A stretch of DNA of 32,112 bases, from the NCBI GenBank assembly GCA_018335675.1, contig JAGXRQ010000018.1, forward strand, positions 66,608 through 98,719. Direction: 5' to 3'. Source of the DNA: Bacteroidota bacterium. GTDB lineage: Bacteria > Bacteroidota > Bacteroidia > Bacteroidales > UBA7960. The stretch's first letter is position 1. The number at the start of each line of letters is the position of its first letter. Below are positions 2,038-20,500 of this stretch, piece by piece. The translations under genes and the position numbers were made by a program. A model generated the notes under the pieces. That model was not told the DNA's origin and did no database searches. It was given only the letters and a program-made list of their open reading frames with translations.

Positions 2038-4839
2038 TTAATGTGCTTCCAGCCAATTATTTCCGGTATTCATATCAACAACAATTGGAACTTCAAGCTT
2101 CAGGGCATCTTTCATGCATTTTTCCACCATAGGCTTTAGTTTTTCGAGCTCAGAAATATGAGCGTCGAAAACTAATTCATCATGTACCTGCATAATCATT
2201 TTTGATTTCAGGTTTTGGTTCTCCAATTCTCTATGAATTTTTATCATAGCAACCTTAATCATATCTGCTGCTGTACCTTGAATTGGTGCATTAATGGCGT
2301 TTCTTTCGGCATATCCTCTGACAGTAGCATTAGCACTATTTATGTCGGGCACATATCTTCTTCTTCCCATCATTGTTTGAACATAGCCATTTTTACGAGC
2401 AAACTCTATAGTTGTATTCATATAATCCTTCACTCCGGGATATTTTATAAAGTACTGGTTTATAATTTCTGCAGCTTCTGCGCGAGGTATATTAATTCTT
2501 TCTGACAATCCAAAAGCTGATATGCCGTATACTATTCCGAAATTCACAGTTTTTGCACGCCGTCTCATTTCTTTGGTTACATCATTAATATCTACCTCCC
2601 AAACTCTTGCTGCAGTAGCTGTATGAATGTCGTAGCCTTTATTAAAAGCATCAATCATTGATGGGTCTTTGCAAAGCGATGCAATAATTCTTAATTCAAT
2701 TTGTGAATAGTCGGCAGCAAGCAGGACAAAATCTTTTTCTCTTGGCACAAAAGCTTTTCTTATTTCCCTGCCTCTTTCCGTACGAATAGGGATGTTTTGC
2801 AAGTTAGGATTGTTCGACGACAATCGTCCAGTGGCAACTATGGCTTGGTTGTATGAAGTGTGCAATCGTCCTGTCTTTTCACTAACAAGCTTGGGGAGAG
2901 CATCTACATAAGTTGATTTAAGCTTAGTAAGGCTTCTATAATCGAGTATTTTCTCCACAATTGGGTGTTTATCAACTAGTTTGATGAGAATTTCTTCACC
3001 TGTGCTATACTGTTTTGTTTTTGTTTTCTTAGGTTTTGCTACAATTTTTAATTCATCGAATAATATTTCTCCCAACTGCTTTGGAGATGAAATATTGAAG
3101 GTTTTGTTTGCCAATTGGAATATTTCCAATTCAATTTCTTTGATTTCCTTGTCTAATACTGCCGAGTAGTCGTTAAGAGCTTTCTCGTCAACTTTTACTC
3201 CTTGGTGCTCTAGCTCTGACAAAACGTAAACAAGAGGAGCCTCAACTTCTTCAAGAAGTTGAGTAAGGTTTTGTTCTTTAAGCAGTGGTTCAAAGTGTTT
3301 TCTAAGTTGTAATGTAATATCGGCATCTTCGCAAGAGTATGCAGCTGCAATATCGATTGGTATAGAACGCATACTTTTTTGATTGCCTCCTTTTTTGCCA
3401 ATAAGATCTTCGATGCTTACGGTAGAATAATCAAGATAAGTTTCGGCCAGCAAGTCCATATTGTGTCTCATATCCGGCTGCAACAAGTAATGCGCAAGCA
3501 TAGTGTCAAAAAGTTTTCCTTTAACATTTACCCCATAACTTTTTAAAACACTGATATCGAATTTAAGATTTTGGCCTGTTTTTTCAATGTTGGGATTTTC
3601 GAAAACAGGCTTAAACTGATTAACAATGTCAACTGCTTGTTTTCTGTTTTCAGGAATAGGCAGATACCAAGCTTCTCCCTGATTAATGCAGAATGCTATT
3701 CCAACAAGTTCTGTATCTATACTGTCGAGACTGATTGTTTCAGTATCAAAGCAAAAAGAGTTTGAACTATCGAGAGTTGTGATAAGGCTGTTTATTTTCT
3801 CATTTGTGTCAACAATATGGTATGATTTCTCTTTTAATAATTGCTGAAGTTTTCCAACAGCAACCTCATAAGGATTAGAAAATGCTTGAGAATCGGAAAA
3901 CATATCCATTTGTCCGGAAAAGCCAGTAGGTTCATCTTCTTTCTTAACTATCACTTCTTCAACTCCAAAAAGTCTTTTAGACAAAGTTCGGAATTCAAGC
4001 TCCTCGAATACAGGAATAAGAAGGCTTTTGTCAGGACTTTTTACTTTAAATATTTCTTCATCAAAATCTACCGGCACATCAAGAATAATAGATGCTAATT
4101 TTTTTGAAAGCAGCGCCTGATCGGCGTACTTTTTAAGGCTTTCGCGGCTTCTGTTTTCTTTGACGTCTTCAACATTCTCGAGTAAATTTTCAATAGAATG
4201 AAACTGAGCAATCAGGTCTCTGGCCTTTTTTTCACCAATACCAGGCACTCCGGGAATATTGTCTGATGAGTCGCCCCAAAGTCCAAGCATATCTTTTACC
4301 TGTTCGGGTTTTTCAATCCCAAATTTTTTACAAACTTCTTTAATTCCCCATATTTCAATCTCATTTCCCAGCCTTGCCGGTTTATACATAAAAACATTGT
4401 CTGAAACTAGCTGTCCAAAATCTTTATCGGGAGTCATCATATAAACCTTAAATCCCTTTTTCTCAGCTTGCTTAGCAAGTGTTCCTATTATATCATCAGC
4501 TTCATATCCATCAAGCTCAATAACAGGAATATTAAACCCTCTAATAATTTCCTTTATAACAAAAAGAGAACTTACAATATCTTCTGGTGTTTCTTCTCTA
4601 TGGCTTTTATACTCCGGGAACTCTTGGTGCCTTTGAGTTGGAGCATAAGTGTCGAATGCAACTGCAATATGAGATGGTTTTTCTTTGGCTAATACTTCGA
4701 GTAGAGAATTAGTAAATCCGAACGCAGCAGAAGTATTAGTGCCTTTTGAGTTAATTCGGGGGTTTCTGCTGAACGCGTAATAAGCGCGATATATCAACGC
4801 CATGGCATCGAGAAGAAACAGCTTTTTTTGATTTTCCAT
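2038..4839 (-). CDS. polA: DNA polymerase I
   Basis: The 933-aa protein has the full three-domain layout. The N-terminal 5'-3' exonuclease/flap nuclease (about 1-300) includes LLDAMALIYRAYYAF, ELDGYEADDIIGTLA and LGLWGDSSDNIPGVPGIGEK. The 3'-5' proofreading exonuclease (about 345-530) keeps the DxE pair (D365, E367 in FDTETISLD). The family-A polymerase (about 560-933) shows motif A (D710 in ADYSQIELR), the O-helix RRRAKTVNFGIVYG and motif C (H886-D887-E888 in MQVHDELVFD). PolA removes RNA primers and fills gaps in replication and repair. Length and motifs are normal and nothing is missing. A TATATTTG box lies 24 bp upstream. The stop codon abuts an inverted AGTC heptad array. Confidence 0.97.
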   Translation of the reverse strand: MENQKKLFLLDAMALIYRAYYAFSRNPRINSKGTNTSAAFGFTNSLLEVLAKEKPSHIAVAFDTYAPTQRHQEFPEYKSHREETPEDIVSSLFVIKEIIRGFNIPVIELDGYEADDIIGTLAKQAEKKGFKVYMMTPDKDFGQLVSDNVFMYKPARLGNEIEIWGIKEVCKKFGIEKPEQVKDMLGLWGDSSDNIPGVPGIGEKKARDLIAQFHSIENLLENVEDVKENRSRESLKKYADQALLSKKLASIILDVPVDFDEEIFKVKSPDKSLLIPVFEELEFRTLSKRLFGVEEVIVKKEDEPTGFSGQMDMFSDSQAFSNPYEVAVGKLQQLLKEKSYHIVDTNEKINSLITTLDSSNSFCFDTETISLDSIDTELVGIAFCINQGEAWYLPIPENRKQAVDIVNQFKPVFENPNIEKTGQNLKFDISVLKSYGVNVKGKLFDTMLAHYLLQPDMRHNMDLLAETYLDYSTVSIEDLIGKKGGNQKSMRSIPIDIAAAYSCEDADITLQLRKHFEPLLKEQNLTQLLEEVEAPLVYVLSELEHQGVKVDEKALNDYSAVLDKEIKEIELEIFQLANKTFNISSPKQLGEILFDELKIVAKPKKTKTKQYSTGEEILIKLVDKHPIVEKILDYRSLTKLKSTYVDALPKLVSEKTGRLHTSYNQAIVATGRLSSNNPNLQNIPIRTERGREIRKAFVPREKDFVLLAADYSQIELRIIASLCKDPSMIDAFNKGYDIHTATAARVWEVDINDVTKEMRRRAKTVNFGIVYGISAFGLSERINIPRAEAAEIINQYFIKYPGVKDYMNTTIEFARKNGYVQTMMGRRRYVPDINSANATVRGYAERNAINAPIQGTAADMIKVAMIKIHRELENQNLKSKMIMQVHDELVFDAHISELEKLKPMVEKCMKDALKLEVPIVVDMNTGNNWLEAH

Positions 4840-4980: not shown

Positions 4981-6141
4981 ATGCCTACAGTATTTCATTT
5001 TGTAAGACGATATTTACATTACACGGCTACTTTCATTGGAAATCAAATAAGTAATCATAAAAACTACCATTCAGTCCTCTTTTATAAAGAGCATATTCCA
5101 AACCCTGCATTTACGTTTGCAAACATTTTCAACATTGATGATTCAAAGAAGATTAGGTCTGTATTTCATAAATTGATTTATAAAATTTCGCGTCATATTA
5201 CAAGGTCACAGGTTAATTATATCTTAAAAAGGATTGACGAAGAAAAGCCAAACATTTTGCATTTTCATTATGGAACTGACGCCGGTATGTTTTATAAGAT
5301 CCTTAAAAAAGCAAGAGTGCCAAAAGTGGTTTCCTTTTATGGCTGGGATTACTCATATTTCCCAAAAAGATATTTTGGCATAGGCAAAAAGTATTTGCAA
5401 AAGAGAGTATTTGAACATGCAGATTTAATTTTGGCCATGAGTATGAATATGAAAAAAGCTCTAATATCGCTTGGAGCAAGGGGCGAGAAAATAAAAATTC
5501 ATTATCATGGATTAGATACTTCGCTATTCAACATAGAAAGAGATTATGCTGAGAAAGATGAGGTGAATATTTATTTACTTAGCAGCCTGGAACCAAAAAA
5601 GGGGCATTTATTTCTTCTTAAAGCTTTAAAAAGAAGCATTGAAAAGACATCTAAACCTCTAAAACTTCATTTTACCGGAAAATTTGGAAAATTTAGTTCT
5701 ATCAATAATAGTATTAAAAAGTTGGGGTTGGAGAAAAACGTAATATGGCATGCCCCCTATCAATATGGCAGTGAAAGGCATTTGAAGATGCTTTCAAAGG
5801 CTGATTTCTTTGTACATCCAAGCATTACCGACAAAAAGGGCAATAAGGAAGGAATCCCTGGAACACTTCTGGAAGCCATGAGTTCCGGATTAGCTGTAAT
5901 AAGCACTTACCATGCAGGAATACCGGAAATAATAACAGACGGACAAACCGGCTTTTTGGTTAAGGAGTGGGATATTGAAGCATTATCAGAAAAAATTATT
6001 CTGCTGGCAGATAACCACAAATTAAGAAAAGAAGTGGGATTAAGAGCAAAAGAGTATGCAGTAGCCAACCTCGACATACATAAGAAGCAGAAGGAATTGG
6101 AGGGGATATATGAGTCCCTAGTCCTGAGTCCTGAGTCCTGA
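4981..6141 (+). CDS. Family 4 glycosyltransferase
   Basis: This GT-B fold retaining glycosyltransferase is 386 aa from the chosen start. The frame is open back to 4870, but those 37 residues translate the GGGACAAGGCA palindrome and the following repeat, so the ATG at 4981 (MPTVFHFVRRYLHY) is preferred. The N-terminal half carries HFHYGTDAG and SFYGWDYS, as in acceptor-binding domains of this family. The C-terminal half (Glycos_transf_1) has LLSSLEPKKGH and the donor-binding EGIPGTLLEAMSSG followed by HAGIPEII, the E-x7-E type signature. The probable role is sugar transfer during polysaccharide or LPS synthesis in the cytoplasm; donor and acceptor cannot be read from sequence. There is no operon partner. 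The last nine residues (ESLVLSPES) are encoded by the AGTC heptad array that contains the stop codon. Confidence 0.87.
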   Translation: MPTVFHFVRRYLHYTATFIGNQISNHKNYHSVLFYKEHIPNPAFTFANIFNIDDSKKIRSVFHKLIYKISRHITRSQVNYILKRIDEEKPNILHFHYGTDAGMFYKILKKARVPKVVSFYGWDYSYFPKRYFGIGKKYLQKRVFEHADLILAMSMNMKKALISLGARGEKIKIHYHGLDTSLFNIERDYAEKDEVNIYLLSSLEPKKGHLFLLKALKRSIEKTSKPLKLHFTGKFGKFSSINNSIKKLGLEKNVIWHAPYQYGSERHLKMLSKADFFVHPSITDKKGNKEGIPGTLLEAMSSGLAVISTYHAGIPEIITDGQTGFLVKEWDIEALSEKIILLADNHKLRKEVGLRAKEYAVANLDIHKKQKELEGIYESLVLSPES

Positions 6142-6249
6142 GTCCTGAGTCAAAAGTCCTAAGTCAAAAGTCAAAAGATTGAGAAGATTGTAGGGATTGT
6201 GCGGATTGAAGGAAATTAGCCAATGTGATAATGTGCCAATGTGCTAATG
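6113..6249 (+). repeat. Three successive degenerate arrays (7, 9 and 8 bp periods)
   Basis: Three arrays with exact but different periods follow one another. Positions 6113-6175 hold nine AGTCNNN heptads (AGTCCCT, AGTCCTG four times, AGTCAAA, AGTCCTA, AGTCAAA twice). Positions 6177-6212 hold four GATTGNNNN nonads. Positions 6218-6249 hold four octads resembling TGCCAATG (AGCCAATG, TGATAATG, TGCCAATG, TGCTAATG). The glycosyltransferase stop codon (6139-6141) lies in the heptad array. All three read in the same orientation as the gene. Confidence 0.85.
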
Positions 6250-6642: not shown

Positions 6643-6670
6643 GCTCAAACCCCATTATCTCATTGGCACA

Positions 6671-6799
6671 TTATCTCATTTGCACATTTTCATATCGAGG
6701 CACATTTAACAAATTGCACCAGTAGCCCGAGAGATGTTTACTTACCATTGTTTTGCGAATTTTGTAAGTTTTATAATGTTTTAGAATGCCCATGTATGA
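6671..6799 (-). pseudogene. Duplicated 3' end of the DGR reverse transcriptase
   Basis: Translation on the minus strand gives SYMGILKHYKTYKIRK-type residues through to YENVQMR and a stop. This matches residues 355-396 of the RT at 7676-8866 except for K371T and V385L. DNA similarity spans 6660-6799 against 7665-7804 at a constant offset of 1005 bp, with a few substitutions. No start or catalytic motif is present, so this is a remnant left by duplication or by recombination with a second RT copy. The sequence upstream of it (6800-6871) does not match the RT. Confidence 0.85.
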
Positions 6800-6871
6800 A
6801 CTAGCAAAAAAAGAATCTCCAAAGCATCTATAAACCAGACAAATTCGTTTTTTTTGTAAAAAGCAAAGAAA

Positions 6872-7633: not shown

Positions 7634-7697
7634 CATTGGCACATTGGCATATTAGCACATTAACTCATTGGCACATTATCTCATTTGCACATTTTCA
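7634..7697 (-). repeat. Octad array containing the RT stop codon
   Basis: Eight units of exactly 8 bp (plus-strand form CATTNNCA; coding-strand form TGCCAATG) run without a break. The RT stop codon (7678-7676) and its last residues (ENVQMR) are encoded within the array. The duplicated RT tail has the same array at 6653-6692. Confidence 0.85.
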
Positions 7698-8866
7698 TAT
7701 CTAGGCACATTAACCAAATTGCACCAGTAGCCGGAGAGATGTTTACTTACCATTTTTTTGCGAATTTTGTAGGTTTTATAATGTTTTAGAATGCCCATGT
7801 ATGAGTTCATGCTGCTTATAAATTTATCTTTTTCTTCTTTTGTGGGTTTATGGTTTCTGGCAATTTGATTTTGTTTTTCAATAGCTTCAAAAAAATTGCC
7901 TTTGGTTCGGTTGGCAATATATATTCTGTAAGGTTTTATTACTGTGCCTAAATACTGAACACCTTTGGTATAATGTTGAAGATAAATTTTATTGGGGTGT
8001 AATGTTAATTTTAAATTTGATTGTAAAAAGTTTGCCATTTTTGGAATAAGTGACTGTAAATAAGATTTATCAGGATATATTAGTACAAAATCATCAACAT
8101 ACCTTCCATAATATTTTACACCCAATTTTTGCTTAACCCAGTGGTCAAATTCGTTCATATACACATTGCCGAATAACTGAGATGTGAGGTTGCCAATAGG
8201 TAAACCACAGCCGGGCTGAGCATGAAACAGGGTTTTGCTGTTTGGAAGACCTTGCCAGTCTGATTTTTTGCCTTTGATGATGCAGTTTTGCTTAGGATCG
8301 TTAAAAATTGTTTTTTCTATGAGGTATAACACAAGAGATAAATCAAAAGTGTGTTTATGTTTTGTTTTTAATAACTCGTTTTTTACTTTTTCATAAAGCA
8401 GATTTTTGTTCATCGACATAAAATATCCTCTTATATCAAGTTTCAGGATATAGCAATCTTTGGTGTAATTTTGGGAGCATGAGCGCATAAAGTGGTCAAT
8501 TCGTTTTATACCGTAGTGCGTACCCTTGCCTTTCCTGCAACTATAGCTATCATTGATAAAGGTTTTCTCGAATATAGGTGAGATGTAGTTATAAATAAAG
8601 TGGTGAATTATCCTATCACGAAAATCGGCGGCAAAAATCTCACGTTTTACTGGCTTATCAACAATAAAGCAGATACTTGGTTTTGGTATGTATTTGCGTT
8701 CAATTATTTCATTTGCAAGAGCAAACAGATTTGCTTCCAGATGCTTTTCAAAAGCGAGGGCATTAATAGTTTTTCTTTTATTTTTCCGGGCATCAAAATA
8801 GGCCTGAAACAAATCGAGTGTAATTCTATCCCTGTCTATTTCTGAAAATAAATTGAGTTTTTGCAT
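7676..8866 (-). CDS. Diversity-generating retroelement reverse transcriptase
   Basis: A 396-aa reverse transcriptase from the ATG at 8866 (MQKLNLFSEIDRDRITLDLF). RT motifs: IPKPSICFIVDKPVKREIFA (about 60-79), the first catalytic aspartate D144 in LKLDIRGYFMSMN, LPIGNLTSQ (222-230) and YVDD (256-259). The form (I/V/L)GxxxSQ in place of the QGxxxSP of group II intron RTs is the recognised hallmark of DGR enzymes. There is no maturase or endonuclease domain, as expected. It copies the TR transcript into cDNA with adenine-specific errors, which then replaces the VR of the target gene; Avd is the usual partner. The frame is open upstream through the TR to a TTG at 9124, but that part simply translates the template, so the ATG at 8866 is preferred. 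The C-terminal codons lie in an octad array. Confidence 0.95.
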   Translation of the reverse strand: MQKLNLFSEIDRDRITLDLFQAYFDARKNKRKTINALAFEKHLEANLFALANEIIERKYIPKPSICFIVDKPVKREIFAADFRDRIIHHFIYNYISPIFEKTFINDSYSCRKGKGTHYGIKRIDHFMRSCSQNYTKDCYILKLDIRGYFMSMNKNLLYEKVKNELLKTKHKHTFDLSLVLYLIEKTIFNDPKQNCIIKGKKSDWQGLPNSKTLFHAQPGCGLPIGNLTSQLFGNVYMNEFDHWVKQKLGVKYYGRYVDDFVLIYPDKSYLQSLIPKMANFLQSNLKLTLHPNKIYLQHYTKGVQYLGTVIKPYRIYIANRTKGNFFEAIEKQNQIARNHKPTKEEKDKFISSMNSYMGILKHYKTYKIRKKMVSKHLSGYWCNLVNVPRYENVQMR

Positions 8867-8906: not shown

Positions 8907-8920
8907 GTGTTTCCCTTCAA

Positions 8921-9114
8921 ATCCCTGACACAACGAACAGAAAAACCTAACTCCTTATTGTTGTTGTTTCTGTTTACATTGCTGTTATTGTAGTTAATGT
9001 TACGGTTCCATGCGATTGTTGCATTGTTCTCCGTAGCACTCCACCAGTTACCGTTGTTTCCAATGTTGTTGAATGTTCCATTGTTGTTACGGTTGCCACC
9101 CGGAAGGGCTGAAA
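8921..9114 (-). repeat. DGR template repeat (TR)
   Basis: 194 bp that align without gaps to 10171-10364. The coding strand is rich in AAC/AAT codons and would translate as a FISUMP C terminus in which asparagine fills most variable positions. AAY codons can mutate at their adenines to many amino acids without making stops, the usual design of TR sequences. Against VR, 32 adenines have changed (20 to T, 11 to G, 1 to C), and one T (plus-strand A8996) reads G. The 37 bp nearest the RT (8921-8957) are unchanged between the copies, as expected for the IMH side. Confidence 0.97.
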
Positions 9115-9124
9115 GTGTAACCAA

Positions 9125-9285
9125 TCAATTTGTTGCACCACCATTTGCAGGAAATACAATCTTTTATAGCTAACATCAACCTGTTTTGGATATTGCAGGT
9201 AATTACAATGCCAGCGGGTTACCGGATTTAAAATTGCTCGCTCGTCTATGCCGTAGCATTCACGACTCTGGCGGAAAACGAATTT
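9125..9285. other. Gap upstream of TR without recognised gene
   Basis: About 160 bp between the TR and the S23-flanking inverted repeat. It is less AT-rich than the surroundings around 9240-9280. No open frame of protein-like composition and no clear promoter was seen. It may hold the promoter for the TR-RT transcript, but no TANNTTTG box is evident. Confidence 0.4.
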
Positions 9286-9321
9286 AGTTAAAAGTTTGTA
9301 AAGTTGAAAGTTTATAAAGTT
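9286..9321 (+). repeat. Left inverted repeat flanking the S23 gene
   Basis: AGTTAAAAGTTTGTAAAG... is built of AAAGTT units spaced 7 or 9 bp. It is the inverse of 9657-9691: the two share 26 positions apart from one extra 9-bp unit in the right copy. The stop codon of the S23 gene (9314-9312) lies within it. Confidence 0.8.
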
Positions 9322-9656
9322 TTGATTAAGCCTGAAAGTATTTTAGATATTTCTTCTGATAAAGAAAAAAGAAATACAAAATCTTTTTCTGTTATTCTTT
9401 TCATTTCCTTTGCTAAATATAGCATTGAACGAACTTCACCGCATGAACCTTTGGCTATAAACAAAAACTGTTTAAACTCATTATTTGTTTTTCGTTCAAA
9501 GCCTTCGGCAATGTTATTCATTATAGAAACAGATGCTCTTTGTATTTGGTCTTTGAAGCCAAAATCCTTACTTCCTTCAAATAAACTATATATTTGAATG
9601 GTAAGTTCTTTAGCTTTTTGCCATGCAATAATATCCTCAAACCTCTCTATCCTCAT
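9312..9656 (-). CDS. Four-helix-bundle protein, S23/IVS type
   Basis: 114 aa from the ATG at 9656 (MRIERFEDIIAWQKAKELT). The frame is open back to 9707, but the extra residues translate the flanking repeat. It has the family pattern: FEDIIAWQKAKELTIQIY, then FGFKDQIQRASVSIMNNIAEGFERKTNNEF and FLFIAKGSCGEVRSMLYLA. This is the S23 ribosomal-protein-like family, first found in intervening sequences of 23S rRNA genes and structurally akin to DGR Avd. Many Bacteroidota genomes carry it outside rRNA. It lies between avd and TR, and inverted repeats bound it on both sides. It could be a second Avd-like partner of the RT or a hitch-hiking insertion; the flanks favour insertion. Function unproven. Confidence 0.85.
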   Translation of the reverse strand: MRIERFEDIIAWQKAKELTIQIYSLFEGSKDFGFKDQIQRASVSIMNNIAEGFERKTNNEFKQFLFIAKGSCGEVRSMLYLAKEMKRITEKDFVFLFSLSEEISKILSGLIKTL

Positions 9657-9691
9657 ACTTTCAACTTTACAAACTTTATGAACTTTTAACT
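9657..9691 (-). repeat. Right inverted repeat flanking the S23 gene
   Basis: On the minus strand this reads AGTTAAAAGTTCATAAAG..., three AAAGTTNNN nonads ending directly at the S23 start codon. It overlaps the 3' end of avd, encoding its last residues and stop (9678-9676), and mirrors 9286-9321. Confidence 0.8.
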
Positions 9692-10023
9692 GATTTATGC
9701 CATCCACTTAGTTGTTTTGATACATTTTCTACTGCTTGATTTATTTTTACGAATTTATCAAGGCTTATTTGTTTAATGTCTTTCATTACACGAATGAGCA
9801 AACGGATTACTTCAATCTGCTCTCGTGCTATTTGAAGCACATCTGCTTTTTGATGCCTTGTATTAGCACGGTATATTAACGTAAGCAGTTCTATAGTTTC
9901 TTTCTTCAAACTCTCTCCAACCGTATATTTATATTCCTTGCTAAACTCCTTTGTAAACTGGAAAATAGCCAAAAGCAAGTCGTAAGTTGCTTTATATACT
10001 GGTAGTTCATTATAATGTGCCAA
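9676..10023 (-). CDS. avd: DGR accessory variability determinant (Avd)
   Basis: A 115-aa, almost fully helical, lysine- and arginine-rich protein (MAHYNELPVYKATYDLLLAI...). Four predicted helices: about 8-30, 36-57 (GESLKKETIELLTLIYRA), 62-85 (ADVLQIAREQIEVIRLLIRV) and 91-108 (LDKFVKINQAVENVSKQLSG). ELPVYKATYDLLL and the GWxKS end are typical of Bacteroidota Avd proteins. Avd forms a positively charged pentameric barrel that binds the RT and template RNA and is needed for mutagenic homing. It sits between the target gene and the TR, the commonest DGR order. Its last residues (KSVKSS) come from the repeat flanking the S23 gene, so the original C terminus may have been altered. There is no upstream box that would suggest separate transcription. 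Confidence 0.9.
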   Translation of the reverse strand: MAHYNELPVYKATYDLLLAIFQFTKEFSKEYKYTVGESLKKETIELLTLIYRANTRHQKADVLQIAREQIEVIRLLIRVMKDIKQISLDKFVKINQAVENVSKQLSGWHKSVKSS

Positions 10024-10130: not shown

Positions 10131-10170
10131 AATCAAATAAATCAAATTGTCAAATGAATCAAATAAATTA
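10131..10170 (-). repeat. TCAAAT array after the DGR target stop
   Basis: TCAAAT occurs at 10133, 10142, 10150 and 10159 (spacing 9, 8, 9), ending at the stop codon of the target gene (10170-10168). It resembles the other arrays that begin at stop codons in this window, with less regular spacing. Confidence 0.6.
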
Positions 10171-12474
10171 ATCCCTGACACAACGAACAGAAAAACCTAA
10201 CTCCTTACCGAGGTAGTATCTGTCCACATTGCTGTCATAGTAGTTCATGATACGGAACCACGCGACCGAAGCATCGTACTCCGTAGCACTCCACCAGTAA
10301 CCGAAGTATCCAATGAAGTAGAATGTACCATTGCTGAAACGGCTGCCACCCGGAAGGGCTGAAAAGCCAAAATCGTCAGTAGCTGCTGTATTAGGGCTTT
10401 CCCATCTTGGGTGTGCATCTGGCGATGTTCTTGTGCTTTTTAACTTGCCACCTGCTACACCCTCTCCACCTAAATAGTTTGTAAGAGTAGTCCATTCCTC
10501 GTCAGTGGGTACTCTCCATCCCACAGGGCATAAACCCCTTGAATCATCAACTGCGTACCAGTTGTAAAGTGCGCCGTAGGCTGCGAGAACCTCGGCATCC
10601 GAGTTAAGTCCGTCAAGCTCAGAATGTGGGTAAATAGCATATGCACCATTAGTAGTGTTTCCCCAATCTGTATTATTCAATCCTGTGGGTATAGCATCGC
10701 CATTAAGGTATTTGGTAACTCTGAGGTTTTTTGCCATCCATTCCTGGGTGCCTATGATTACGGTTGGATAGATATTGCCGTCAAAGTCTTCTACTGTGCC
10801 ACCGCCGCCCTCAGCCACAAAGTTGGCGGTAAGGGTTATGTTTTGTGCGGGCATGTTTACTGTGGTGCTTGAAGCATCGGTGTTGGCTATATGGTCAGTA
10901 TCACCTGTCCAGTTTACAAAGGTGTAGCCCTCGTTTGGGGTTGCAGTGATGGGAACTACTGCAACTTCTGAGTAATTACCTGCTCCGGTAACAGCGCCAC
11001 TGCTGGCGGGGGATACGTTAAGATTGAGGGTGTGGGTGGTGGGGGGTGCAGCTAATGTTGAAAACTGTAGTTGATTGCCATAACCGTTTCCTGCTGTATT
11101 GGTGGCATAGGCACGGACAAAATAATTGGTTTCGGGCGTGAGACCGGTTAGTTCACTTTCAAATACGCCCAAACCGGTTTGATTGGCAGTAAACCCTATG
11201 TTGTTATCGAGTGTGGGCAACTCTTCGGTATGCCAAACAACGCCTCGGGCTGTAATATCTGTCCCTCCATTATTGAGGACAATACCACCGCTTAGAGCCG
11301 TAATATCGGTAATTGCACTTATCGCAGCGGTCGTAACCAATGGTGGATTTTGGAAACTTTCGTAATAAGCTAAAAGGGCATTTACTTTTGTTTCCAATAA
11401 ATCAACATAAGCTTTTGTGGCTGCATCATAATCATCTGTTGGATCTGCAATATTTTTTATTTGTACAGAATTTCCATCATTCCCCAAAGCTAGTACATCT
11501 CCCAAATTTTGTATTTCTATATATTCAGTTAAAAAGTCAGGAGTAAACTTCATCCACTTTTCACCATCAAATCTTAATAGGTCGTTTTCTGTAACACCCG
11601 TAAAATCAAAATTTTCAGTAAAAAATGGGTCAGATTCTAAAATTATATATCCTTCAGCAGAATGGTCGCCCCATGAGTGTGCTTCGTCCCAATCATCAGT
11701 ATTTAGCACAGGTAAATTATCAAGGCTGTTATAATCGCCATCAAATAATAGTCCGTCATCATCTGATAAATCTGCTATATCAGCAGGTATGTCGGGAGTA
11801 CCTTCAAGGCTGCTGTATTGGCCATCGAACAATACAGGTTTATCTTTAAGGTCGTTGTAGCTTCCACTTATTGCTACATCAGCAAAGTTAGGCTTGCCGG
11901 TTATTTCTGTCCAGTTGGGGGCATAATCACTATCAAGGTATAAGCCGTTATGGTCGCCCCATGAGTGTGCATTATCCCAATTACTAATATCACCACCGGT
12001 AATGCCTGCGGCAGGGCTTGCACCAAAAACAGGATCTGTTTCTGTAATACCACCTAATATATCATTAGCAGTTTTTGCATGCAAAGCATAAGGTACGCTC
12101 AGCATCTGGCTTGTGCCCGAAATGGTGTAATTTGTGCCTCCTGTGGGGTCGGTTTCTATCTTTAAAAAGTAAATGCCATCTGCCCAATTTATTGCAGAAA
12201 ATCCGGTGCCTCCGCCAATCTCTATGCTTATCAAACCATTCTTATTGGTAGTAGGCGTTTTGGTTTCTGTATATACAACATCGCCCGTGGCACTGCCCTT
12301 TAAAATGCTAATTTTCATACCTATTGTACCTTCTGATATTAATTTTCCAGAAGCATCCCTAATTACAGCATTGTAGCTGAATTTTTCCGGCACCTGCGCC
12401 GATGTATTGTTTGTGCTTTGATATGCGATTGCTATTATTAGCAATACGAATAATGTTTGTAATAATTTTTTCAT
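10168..12474 (-). CDS. DGR target: secreted fibre-like protein with C-terminal FISUMP domain
   Basis: 768 aa. Signal peptide 1-26 (MKKLLQTLFVLLIIAIAYQS, cut near SAQ). An N-terminal beta domain (27-135) ends SVPYALHAKTAN. A fibre-like region (165-320) has repeated modules: NWDNAHSWGDH and DWDEAHSWGDH, plus three YxDL/YxSL...P units at about 206, 220 and 248. Next come NLGDVLALGNDGNSVQIKN and a coiled coil (350-372), an Fn3-like domain (378-474), an InlB/Flg_new-type repeat (480-552) and a FISUMP (Fib_succ_major) domain (561-768) with QEWMAKNLR and GWRVPTDEEW. Residues 704-768 are the DGR variable repeat; 22 positions differ from the TR-encoded version, mostly Asn to Tyr, Phe, Asp or Ser. FISUMP has a C-type-lectin-like fold used for ligand binding. 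The likely role is a trimeric surface fibre presenting a diversified tip. There is no T9SS sorting domain, so its anchoring is unclear. Confidence 0.93.
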   Translation of the reverse strand: MKKLLQTLFVLLIIAIAYQSTNNTSAQVPEKFSYNAVIRDASGKLISEGTIGMKISILKGSATGDVVYTETKTPTTNKNGLISIEIGGGTGFSAINWADGIYFLKIETDPTGGTNYTISGTSQMLSVPYALHAKTANDILGGITETDPVFGASPAAGITGGDISNWDNAHSWGDHNGLYLDSDYAPNWTEITGKPNFADVAISGSYNDLKDKPVLFDGQYSSLEGTPDIPADIADLSDDDGLLFDGDYNSLDNLPVLNTDDWDEAHSWGDHSAEGYIILESDPFFTENFDFTGVTENDLLRFDGEKWMKFTPDFLTEYIEIQNLGDVLALGNDGNSVQIKNIADPTDDYDAATKAYVDLLETKVNALLAYYESFQNPPLVTTAAISAITDITALSGGIVLNNGGTDITARGVVWHTEELPTLDNNIGFTANQTGLGVFESELTGLTPETNYFVRAYATNTAGNGYGNQLQFSTLAAPPTTHTLNLNVSPASSGAVTGAGNYSEVAVVPITATPNEGYTFVNWTGDTDHIANTDASSTTVNMPAQNITLTANFVAEGGGGTVEDFDGNIYPTVIIGTQEWMAKNLRVTKYLNGDAIPTGLNNTDWGNTTNGAYAIYPHSELDGLNSDAEVLAAYGALYNWYAVDDSRGLCPVGWRVPTDEEWTTLTNYLGGEGVAGGKLKSTRTSPDAHPRWESPNTAATDDFGFSALPGGSRFSNGTFYFIGYFGYWWSATEYDASVAWFRIMNYYDSNVDRYYLGKELGFSVRCVRD
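10171..10364 (-). repeat. DGR variable repeat (VR)
   Basis: The last 194 bp of the target gene, aligned with TR at a constant offset of 1250 bp. 33 mismatches (83% identity), 32 of them at template adenines. The 3'-most 37 bp on the coding strand (10207-10171) are identical to TR and probably contain the initiation-of-mutagenic-homing (IMH) region. Similarity ends just past the stop codon's last base. Confidence 0.97.
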
Positions 12475-12546: not shown

Positions 12547-12579
12547 TTGTGATTTGTTTATCCTTCCTCATGTTTTTCA

Positions 12580-12698
12580 AACCCTGAACCCCAAACCCCA
12601 AGCCTAACACCCCAAACCTAACACCCCATTGGCATATTGGCACATTAACTAATTAACCAATTAACTAATTAACTAATTAACCAATTAACTAATTAACT
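12580..12698 (-). repeat. Heptad and octad arrays downstream of the T9SS gene
   Basis: Seven 7-bp units (12580-12628; AACCCCA, AGCCTAA, CACCCCA and similar; coding strand TGGGGTT/TTAGGTT) meet nine 8-bp units (12627-12698; AATTAACT, AATTAACC, CATTGGCA and similar). The stop codon of the T9SS gene (12699-12697) is in the last plus-strand octad. Periods are exact but the units vary. Confidence 0.85.
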
Positions 12699-13173
12699 AA
12701 TTCTTAACAATCTTAAACGTTTTAACCTCTTTCTTACCTTCAATCACTTTGAGGAAGTAAATTGAGGGTAAAAGGTTGGCCATGTTTATTGCGGTTTCAA
12801 TGTCTGTAATCTTTTTGCTATCTATAAGCCTTGCGTTCATATCATATAGATAATACCAAAGATTTTCAATCTCGTAGCTTTCAACTTTTAAAGTTAGTAC
12901 ATCCCTTGTGGGATTTGGGTAGGCTGAAACTAGCAATTCAATGCCAAATGCTTCTTCAATGCTTGTTTCTTCGTAAGTTTCGTAAGGTTGCTGCACGCCT
13001 TCGGAAACAGAGCCTCCGGTGCCGGTATGTATTGCATAGCTAACCTGACCAACAGAGTAACTCACAGTGCCACCGCTTCCGGATGCTTCTCCGCCTGTGG
13101 GCAGGATCACATTTTGTGCATGAATAAAAAACGAGACAAGCATAAACAATAACAGTAATGGTAATTTTTTCAT
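12697..13173 (-). CDS. Small secreted protein with T9SS sorting domain
   Basis: 158 aa with a signal peptide (MKKLPLLLLFMLVSFFIHAQ, cut after HAQ). A glycine/serine-rich section (ILPTGGEASGSGGTVSYSVGQ and YAIHTGTGGSVSEGVQQPYE) is common in short Bacteroidota surface proteins. The C-terminal T9SS type A sorting domain (about 82-158) shows AYPNPTRDVLTLKVE, LYDMNARLIDSKKI and IYFLKVIEGKKEVKTFKIVKN. It would be exported by Sec and then by T9SS to the cell surface. It lies 222 bp upstream of the DGR target on the same strand, with no clear promoter between, so the two may be co-transcribed. It could be a surface partner or anchor of the target; this is inference from position only. Its stop codon lies in an octad array. 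Confidence 0.87.
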   Translation of the reverse strand: MKKLPLLLLFMLVSFFIHAQNVILPTGGEASGSGGTVSYSVGQVSYAIHTGTGGSVSEGVQQPYETYEETSIEEAFGIELLVSAYPNPTRDVLTLKVESYEIENLWYYLYDMNARLIDSKKITDIETAINMANLLPSIYFLKVIEGKKEVKTFKIVKN

Positions 13174-13651: not shown

Positions 13652-13707
13652 CATTGGCACATTGGCACATTATCACATTGGCATATTATCACATTTGCAC
13701 ATTAACT
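13652..13707 (-). repeat. Octad array after the PG0541-like gene
   Basis: Seven exact 8-bp units (CATTGGCA three times, CATTATCA, TATTATCA, CATTTGCA, CATTAACT on the plus strand), ending 2 bp from the stop codon of the gene at 13710-14006. Confidence 0.85.
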
Positions 13708-20289: not shown

Positions 20290-20298
20290 ATCTCAATA

Positions 20299-20338
20299 GA
20301 TTCAAGATTTTTAAGATTCAAGATTTTTAAGATTGAAA
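20299..20338. repeat. Octad-phase repeat upstream of tetR
   Basis: GATTCAAGATTTTTAA occurs twice in tandem (20299-20314, 20315-20330), followed by GATTGAAA. It can be read as five 8-bp units. It lies between the tetR start and its putative -7 box, so it would be in the leader RNA. It shows no obvious dyad typical of a TetR operator. Confidence 0.65.
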
Positions 20339-20420: not shown

Positions 20421-20500
20421 AGTATGGAGGTGTGGGGTAAGGGGAATTAGGGCATAGAGGTATAGGGGTATAGGGGTATAGGGGTATAGGGGTATAGGAA
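20421..20500 (+). repeat. Octad array NNTAGGGG
   Basis: About ten 8-bp units in exact phase: diverged ones first (GGTGTGGG, GTAAGGGG, AATTAGGG, CATAGAGG), then TATAGGGG four times and TATAGGAA. One end is degenerate and the other homogeneous, a sign of local expansion. It is in the non-coding stretch between tetR and the ORF6N gene. Confidence 0.85.

Follow-up and report, generated by a model that had tools for sequence, protein, structure and literature searches.

Intervening sequences (IVSs) within 23S rRNA are the closest described relatives of the element studied here. An IVS with an S23 ORF is present in the 23S rRNA of Leptospira, according to Ralph and McClelland (1993) as cited in PMC4990558. 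In the 23S rRNA IVS of Coxiella, a variable number of tandem heptamers precedes the S23 ATG, and the element is closed by a 28-bp terminal stem that is cut by RNase III (PMC4990558). The purpose of the S23 intervening sequences and the way they move have been open questions for more than 25 years (PMC4990558). S23 is also structurally similar to Avd (PMC10053308). A further relevant group is the heptanucleotide repeats of Nostoc, Xanthomonas and Beggiatoaceae (PMC4692102, PMC4679880). As far as the cited parts of these reports go, these repeats resemble the arrays described below in being intergenic, built of 7-nt units and patchily distributed across Cyanobacteria and Bacteroidetes, but unlike S23 cassettes they are described without S23 genes or inverted pairs around a gene.

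The window, i.e. the whole stretch of 32,112 nucleotides from a Bacteroidota bacterium that was analysed, contains a DGR in which an S23 gene is located between avd and the template repeat (TR). The features of the locus are:

7676..8866, minus strand: DGR reverse transcriptase (RT; RVT_1, E=1.7e-17)
8920..9114, minus strand: DGR template repeat (TR), an 83% direct repeat with VR
9281..9322, minus strand: downstream arm of the cassette, inverted array (inverted repeats; TRF array 9286-9321)
9312..9656, minus strand: S23 / four helix bundle gene, loop of the cassette (114 aa; PF05635, E=5e-34)
9657..9696, minus strand: upstream arm of the cassette, AAAGTT-type array (inverted repeats; sequence), encoding the last codons and the stop of avd
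9676..10023, minus strand: avd, with a TTG start (bAvd PF22296, E=1.5e-14)
10170..10364, minus strand: DGR variable repeat (VR), direct repeat with TR, at the 3' end of the target gene 10168-12474

The DGR is genuine, since 32 of the 33 differences between TR and VR are at TR adenines. The avd gene, which matches the Avd model NF033474 below the cut-off of that model, ends at 9676, and its final residues KSVKSS are encoded by the array. The gap between avd and TR is 561 nt, or 171 nt when the cassette is subtracted. An isolated second copy of the 3' end of the RT gene (6653-6805; residues 351-396, 91% identical) was observed downstream of the RT, and similar lone C-terminal RT fragments occur in the relatives G027 and G029.

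A first-pass annotation of this DNA had described an S23 gene bounded by inverted AAAGTT-type arrays inside a DGR, with the repeats supplying the ends of both avd and S23. These claims are confirmed, as the S23 gene, the inverted arrays, the arm-encoded gene ends and the DGR could all be verified. The S23 protein belongs to the PF05635 family, with a score of 117 bits against a cut-off of 33.8, and also scores above the cut-off of TIGR02436 (23S_rRNA_IVP; 113 bits, cut-off 24). Its nearest solved structures are 2gsc and 2rld. Inverted repeat analysis of the window revealed that the 21 nt at 9291-9311 are a perfect (100%) complement of those at 9657-9677, and that the repeats extend imperfectly over 9281-9322 and 9657-9696. 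The partner of the 26-nt arm at 9286-9311 carries an extra 9-nt unit. The S23 ATG follows directly after the upstream arm, which also holds the avd stop and the codons just before it, and the S23 stop TAA (9312-9314) lies within the downstream arm. In the predicted RNA fold of the cassette the arms are paired (MFE -108.6 kcal/mol, z=-6.7 against shuffles). Furthermore, because dN/dS is about 0.1 against relatives, the S23 protein shows strong purifying selection and is maintained.

The cassette thus has terminal inverted repeats that can form a stem around an S23 ORF, as an IVS does. As in the 23S rRNA IVSs, the ORF is placed in the loop between the repeats and the distribution is sporadic, and as in Coxiella, short tandem units stand just before the S23 ATG. 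The cassette differs from the rRNA IVSs in that it is found between protein genes, here avd and TR, and not in an rRNA helix, and in that its arms are array-like, with lineage-specific units. A further difference is that S23-less arrays with the units of the cassettes are scattered through the host genome. An Rfam screen placed none of 80 other S23 loci within rRNA, and the link to the rRNA IVSs is therefore drawn from their published anatomy. The earlier suggestion that the cassette is built like the rRNA intervening sequences is borne out by the match in S23 ORF, heptamers and stem with the Coxiella IVS (PMC4990558). In our judgement the window feature is probably an intercistronic S23/IVS element, consisting of a heptamer-type array, an S23 ORF and the same array inverted, that was inserted between avd and TR. 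We read it as an intercistronic element of the IVS type because the published IVS of Coxiella 23S rRNA has the same parts.

Inverted arrays are a general feature of S23 genes and not peculiar to the DGR. Inspection of the host genome revealed ten S23 genes, all of which have short-unit repeats on both sides that are inverted relative to each other; the unit varies from locus to locus but is matched within each locus. When 426 ORFs from 546 kb of this genome were ranked by inverted-flank score, the top six were all S23 genes. The same trend was found at 39 loci from the order of the host, the host included, and at 80 S23 loci from more than 20 phyla; as the window S23 was part of the query that these 80 loci matched best, they favour its part of the family. 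Of 78 loci that were scored, again spanning more than 20 phyla, 70% were significant at p<0.05 against swapped arms. With a single alignment scheme and mechanical ORF calls, the median score was 24 for S23 genes (n=107, more than 20 phyla, most of them in this kind of cassette) versus 12 for 365 other ORFs from the same loci (p=1e-41), and a score of 22 was attained by 66% of the S23 genes versus 3.6% of the other ORFs. The units are degenerate, have a period of 7, 8 or 9 nt, and form arms that abut the ORF; G outnumbers C in the upstream arm of 64 of the 73 strong cases. Cyanobacterial S23 loci, which were sampled via plasmids, had inverted arrays around most of the S23 genes examined. In the open-access literature we found no earlier description of a link between arrays and S23 beyond the heptamers of the Coxiella IVS, although earlier work may have been missed.

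Two of the plasmid cassettes illustrate the variety of locations: one, from an Anabaena plasmid, is flanked by cas6 and cas4 (L273, 1483-1851), and the other, from a Nostoc plasmid, lies in antisense orientation between nrdB and nrdA (L272, 1483-1851). A strict orientation with the host operon was considered and rejected. The cassettes were co-directional with both neighbours in 76 of 100 cases, against 65–67% in controls, which is a weak bias, and some are antisense, as exemplified by the nrdB/nrdA cassette. A search with an S23 query gave no match in 50,697 phage records, and PADLOC gave no match for S23 as a defence system.

Comparison of orthologous sites between species supports mobility of the S23 cassette. 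Of 30 genomes from the family, 3 carry a cassette in the gap that separates ruvA from its upstream neighbour; the remaining 27 ruvA sites have no S23, and no such array is visible within 260 nt upstream. The two closest filled ruvA sites have upstream flanks that are 97% identical, whereas their S23 proteins are 58% identical and their arrays are different. A chromate-transporter gene site is occupied by unrelated cassettes in two genomes, with S23 proteins 46% identical and units GGGGTAT and GGAGACC, and is empty in two others. Occupied and empty orthologous sites, as expected of a mobile element, thus exist at ruvA, at the chromate-transporter gene and, as described below, in sister DGRs. 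The first-pass annotation had proposed a small mobile cassette inserted as a unit and had pointed to empty sites and to AAAGTT flanks elsewhere as ways to check it. Empty sites were found at all three of these places, AAAGTT flanks are present on related S23 genes at other loci, and at orthologous sites the arrays are gained and lost together with the gene. Inspection of the cassettes and of the ruvA boundaries revealed no transposase or other mobilising enzyme and no target-site duplication.

As judged from the loci compared, the type of array unit goes with the S23 lineage, also between phyla. The more similar two S23 proteins are, the more similar their arrays tend to be (Mantel r=0.25, with 0 of 2000 permutations as high), and three S23 lineages have the units AAAGTT, AGTCCTG and GGGGTATA. 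Nearly all of the nearest relatives of the window S23, from Bacteroidota and Patescibacteria, have AAAGTT-like arms, and GAGTGCT-like units are common to S23 loci of Planctomycetota, Thermodesulfovibrionales and Chloroflexi. MAG binning errors may inflate single cross-phylum cases, but hardly the whole pattern of unit and lineage. These data bear on the idea that the arms originate independently at every site through slippage, with their complementarity kept by selection on RNA structure only and with no mobility. The unequal copy number of units in the two arms and the variation of arms between loci would fit such an origin, but related S23 genes in Bacteroidota and Patescibacteria carry the same unit, and filled and empty orthologous sites exist; we consider it highly improbable.

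Arrays are also found on their own. In genome samples, the host had 42 S23-less arrays in 546 kb. Scored against the ten S23 cassettes of the host itself, these arrays had a mean best match of 24.2, versus a mean of 11.4 and a maximum of 13.1 for random sets of ten foreign cassettes (300 draws). The density of arrays was 1 in 341 kb for five S23-free genomes versus 50 in about 748 kb for six S23-bearing genomes, samples that differ in GC; with samples above 0.40 GC, it was 1 in about 342 kb versus 9 in about 264 kb. REP/REPIN sequences go together with RAYT transposases. The S23 system is like REP/REPIN (PMC3116915) in that small dispersed repeats share a genome with a copy of a related gene, but unlike it the S23 cassettes are without a transposase and their units form short tandem arrays.

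The window itself has S23-less arrays of 7–9-nt units at 1927-2037, 6111-6151, 6219-6249, 7634-7711, 12578-12702, 13652-13703, 20298-20334 and 20434-20498, and the stretches 1927-1995 and 2014-2037 are an apparent inverted pair of arrays between two convergent genes. In addition, arrays with an 11-nt unit of the AAAGTGACAGG type form a dispersed family in the host genome that is unlinked to S23 genes in the sample (L075 12840-12906, L083 3029-3106, L094 10920-10983, L096 2155-2231 and L097 2320-2364).

One might suppose that the dispersed hairpin arrays came first, as ordinary terminator-like intergenic features of the host, and that S23 inserts into their loops. The many S23-less arrays with the same units, some of them inverted pairs at gene ends, speak for this order of events. 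However, the orthologous empty sites are without arrays, which weakens the case for arrays as pre-existing targets; arrays are far denser in S23-bearing than in S23-free samples, GC differing between the two; and the unit tracks the S23 protein across phyla. We therefore find this order unlikely.

The presence of S23 next to avd had also led to the proposal that it serves the RT as a second four-helix partner, which would make it a stable DGR component retained between avd and TR. This is consistent with a DGR from another family (G290), which has the order avd-S23-TR-RT, with S23 directly after avd, 79% identical to the window S23 and flanked by AAAGTT arrays, and with further S23-less hairpins nearby. 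At a second locus (L112), an S23 of the window subfamily precedes a DGR target gene, and purifying selection acts on S23. Sister DGRs with 60–64% RT identity are, however, without S23: in two of them the avd-TR gap is 133 and 200 nt, and in the third avd lies directly before RT. Window avd, for which a comparison with C termini in DGRs lacking the insertion had been suggested, has normal length and differs in the last few residues. By the same model, just two of the roughly 49 DGR loci with an avd contain S23, the window and G290, and S23 is thus not conserved in related DGRs as an accessory gene would be. Most close relatives of the window S23 are far from any DGR, none was found within the 8–15 kb context of the other close relatives inspected, and the same cassette build occurs at unrelated sites.

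On the evidence of the sister DGRs and the DGR survey, we rejected a DGR-fixed gene as the main reading and regard a stable DGR component as quite unlikely; the role as second RT partner is unsupported. Most likely, S23 is a passenger in the window DGR. Since G290 carries a related S23 with arrays at the same place, S23 may have been inherited with the DGR, and the two occurrences may be either one insertion or separate events. The suggestion that the locus could shed light on the origin of Avd found no support, as nothing was found that bears on how Avd arose. Avd (PF22296) does have a remote sequence relation to PF05635, but the window S23 scores 148 bits with the S23 model and 21 with an Avd model, and it stands in its own cassette. 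Among the ideas of the first-pass annotation, the mobile cassette thus ranks strongest and the DGR role weakest. Two further observations were made at these loci. In the G290 DGR, the RT has an apparently in-frame insertion containing the palindrome CCCTCTCCAATTGGAGAGGG (L334, around 2380-2440), and in L112, AACTTTC-type arrays flank the avd gene on both sides in the same orientation (4475-4565 and 5023-5073).

For an intercistronic S23/IVS element, a mechanism can be proposed. Once transcribed, the two arrays would base-pair with each other and form a stem that holds the S23 ORF in its loop, like the IVS of 23S rRNA. By analogy with the rRNA IVS, RNase III would cut this stem, and so the neighbouring cistrons would be parted from the S23 message at little cost. 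The S23 protein is a four-helix bundle and a relative of Avd. It probably recognises its own array, in RNA or DNA form, and probably helps both the cassette and the S23-less arrays that share its unit to spread. To our knowledge S23 has no catalytic site, and the cassette may be moved by an outside enzyme supplied in trans.

A wider speculation is that S23 proteins are sequence-specific for their own heptamer arrays and drive a transposase-free mobile element, of which the S23-less arrays, the heptanucleotide repeats of Bacteroidota and Cyanobacteria and the rRNA IVSs are products. The full cassettes would then carry the gene, and the S23-less arrays would be derivatives moved or expanded in trans. 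We put this forward tentatively, as a possibility that is rather more doubtful than it is probable.

Proximity to avd alone is not enough to count an S23 gene as part of a DGR. The S23 cassette is a widespread and apparently mobile hairpin of IVS-like build, which is found across bacterial phyla and inserts between ordinary genes. If S23 cassettes with lineage-tied units are the rule, array binding, mobility and the origin of heptanucleotide repeats become testable, and if true, the tests would be feasible in hosts that can be cultured, for example Flavobacterium or Nostoc.
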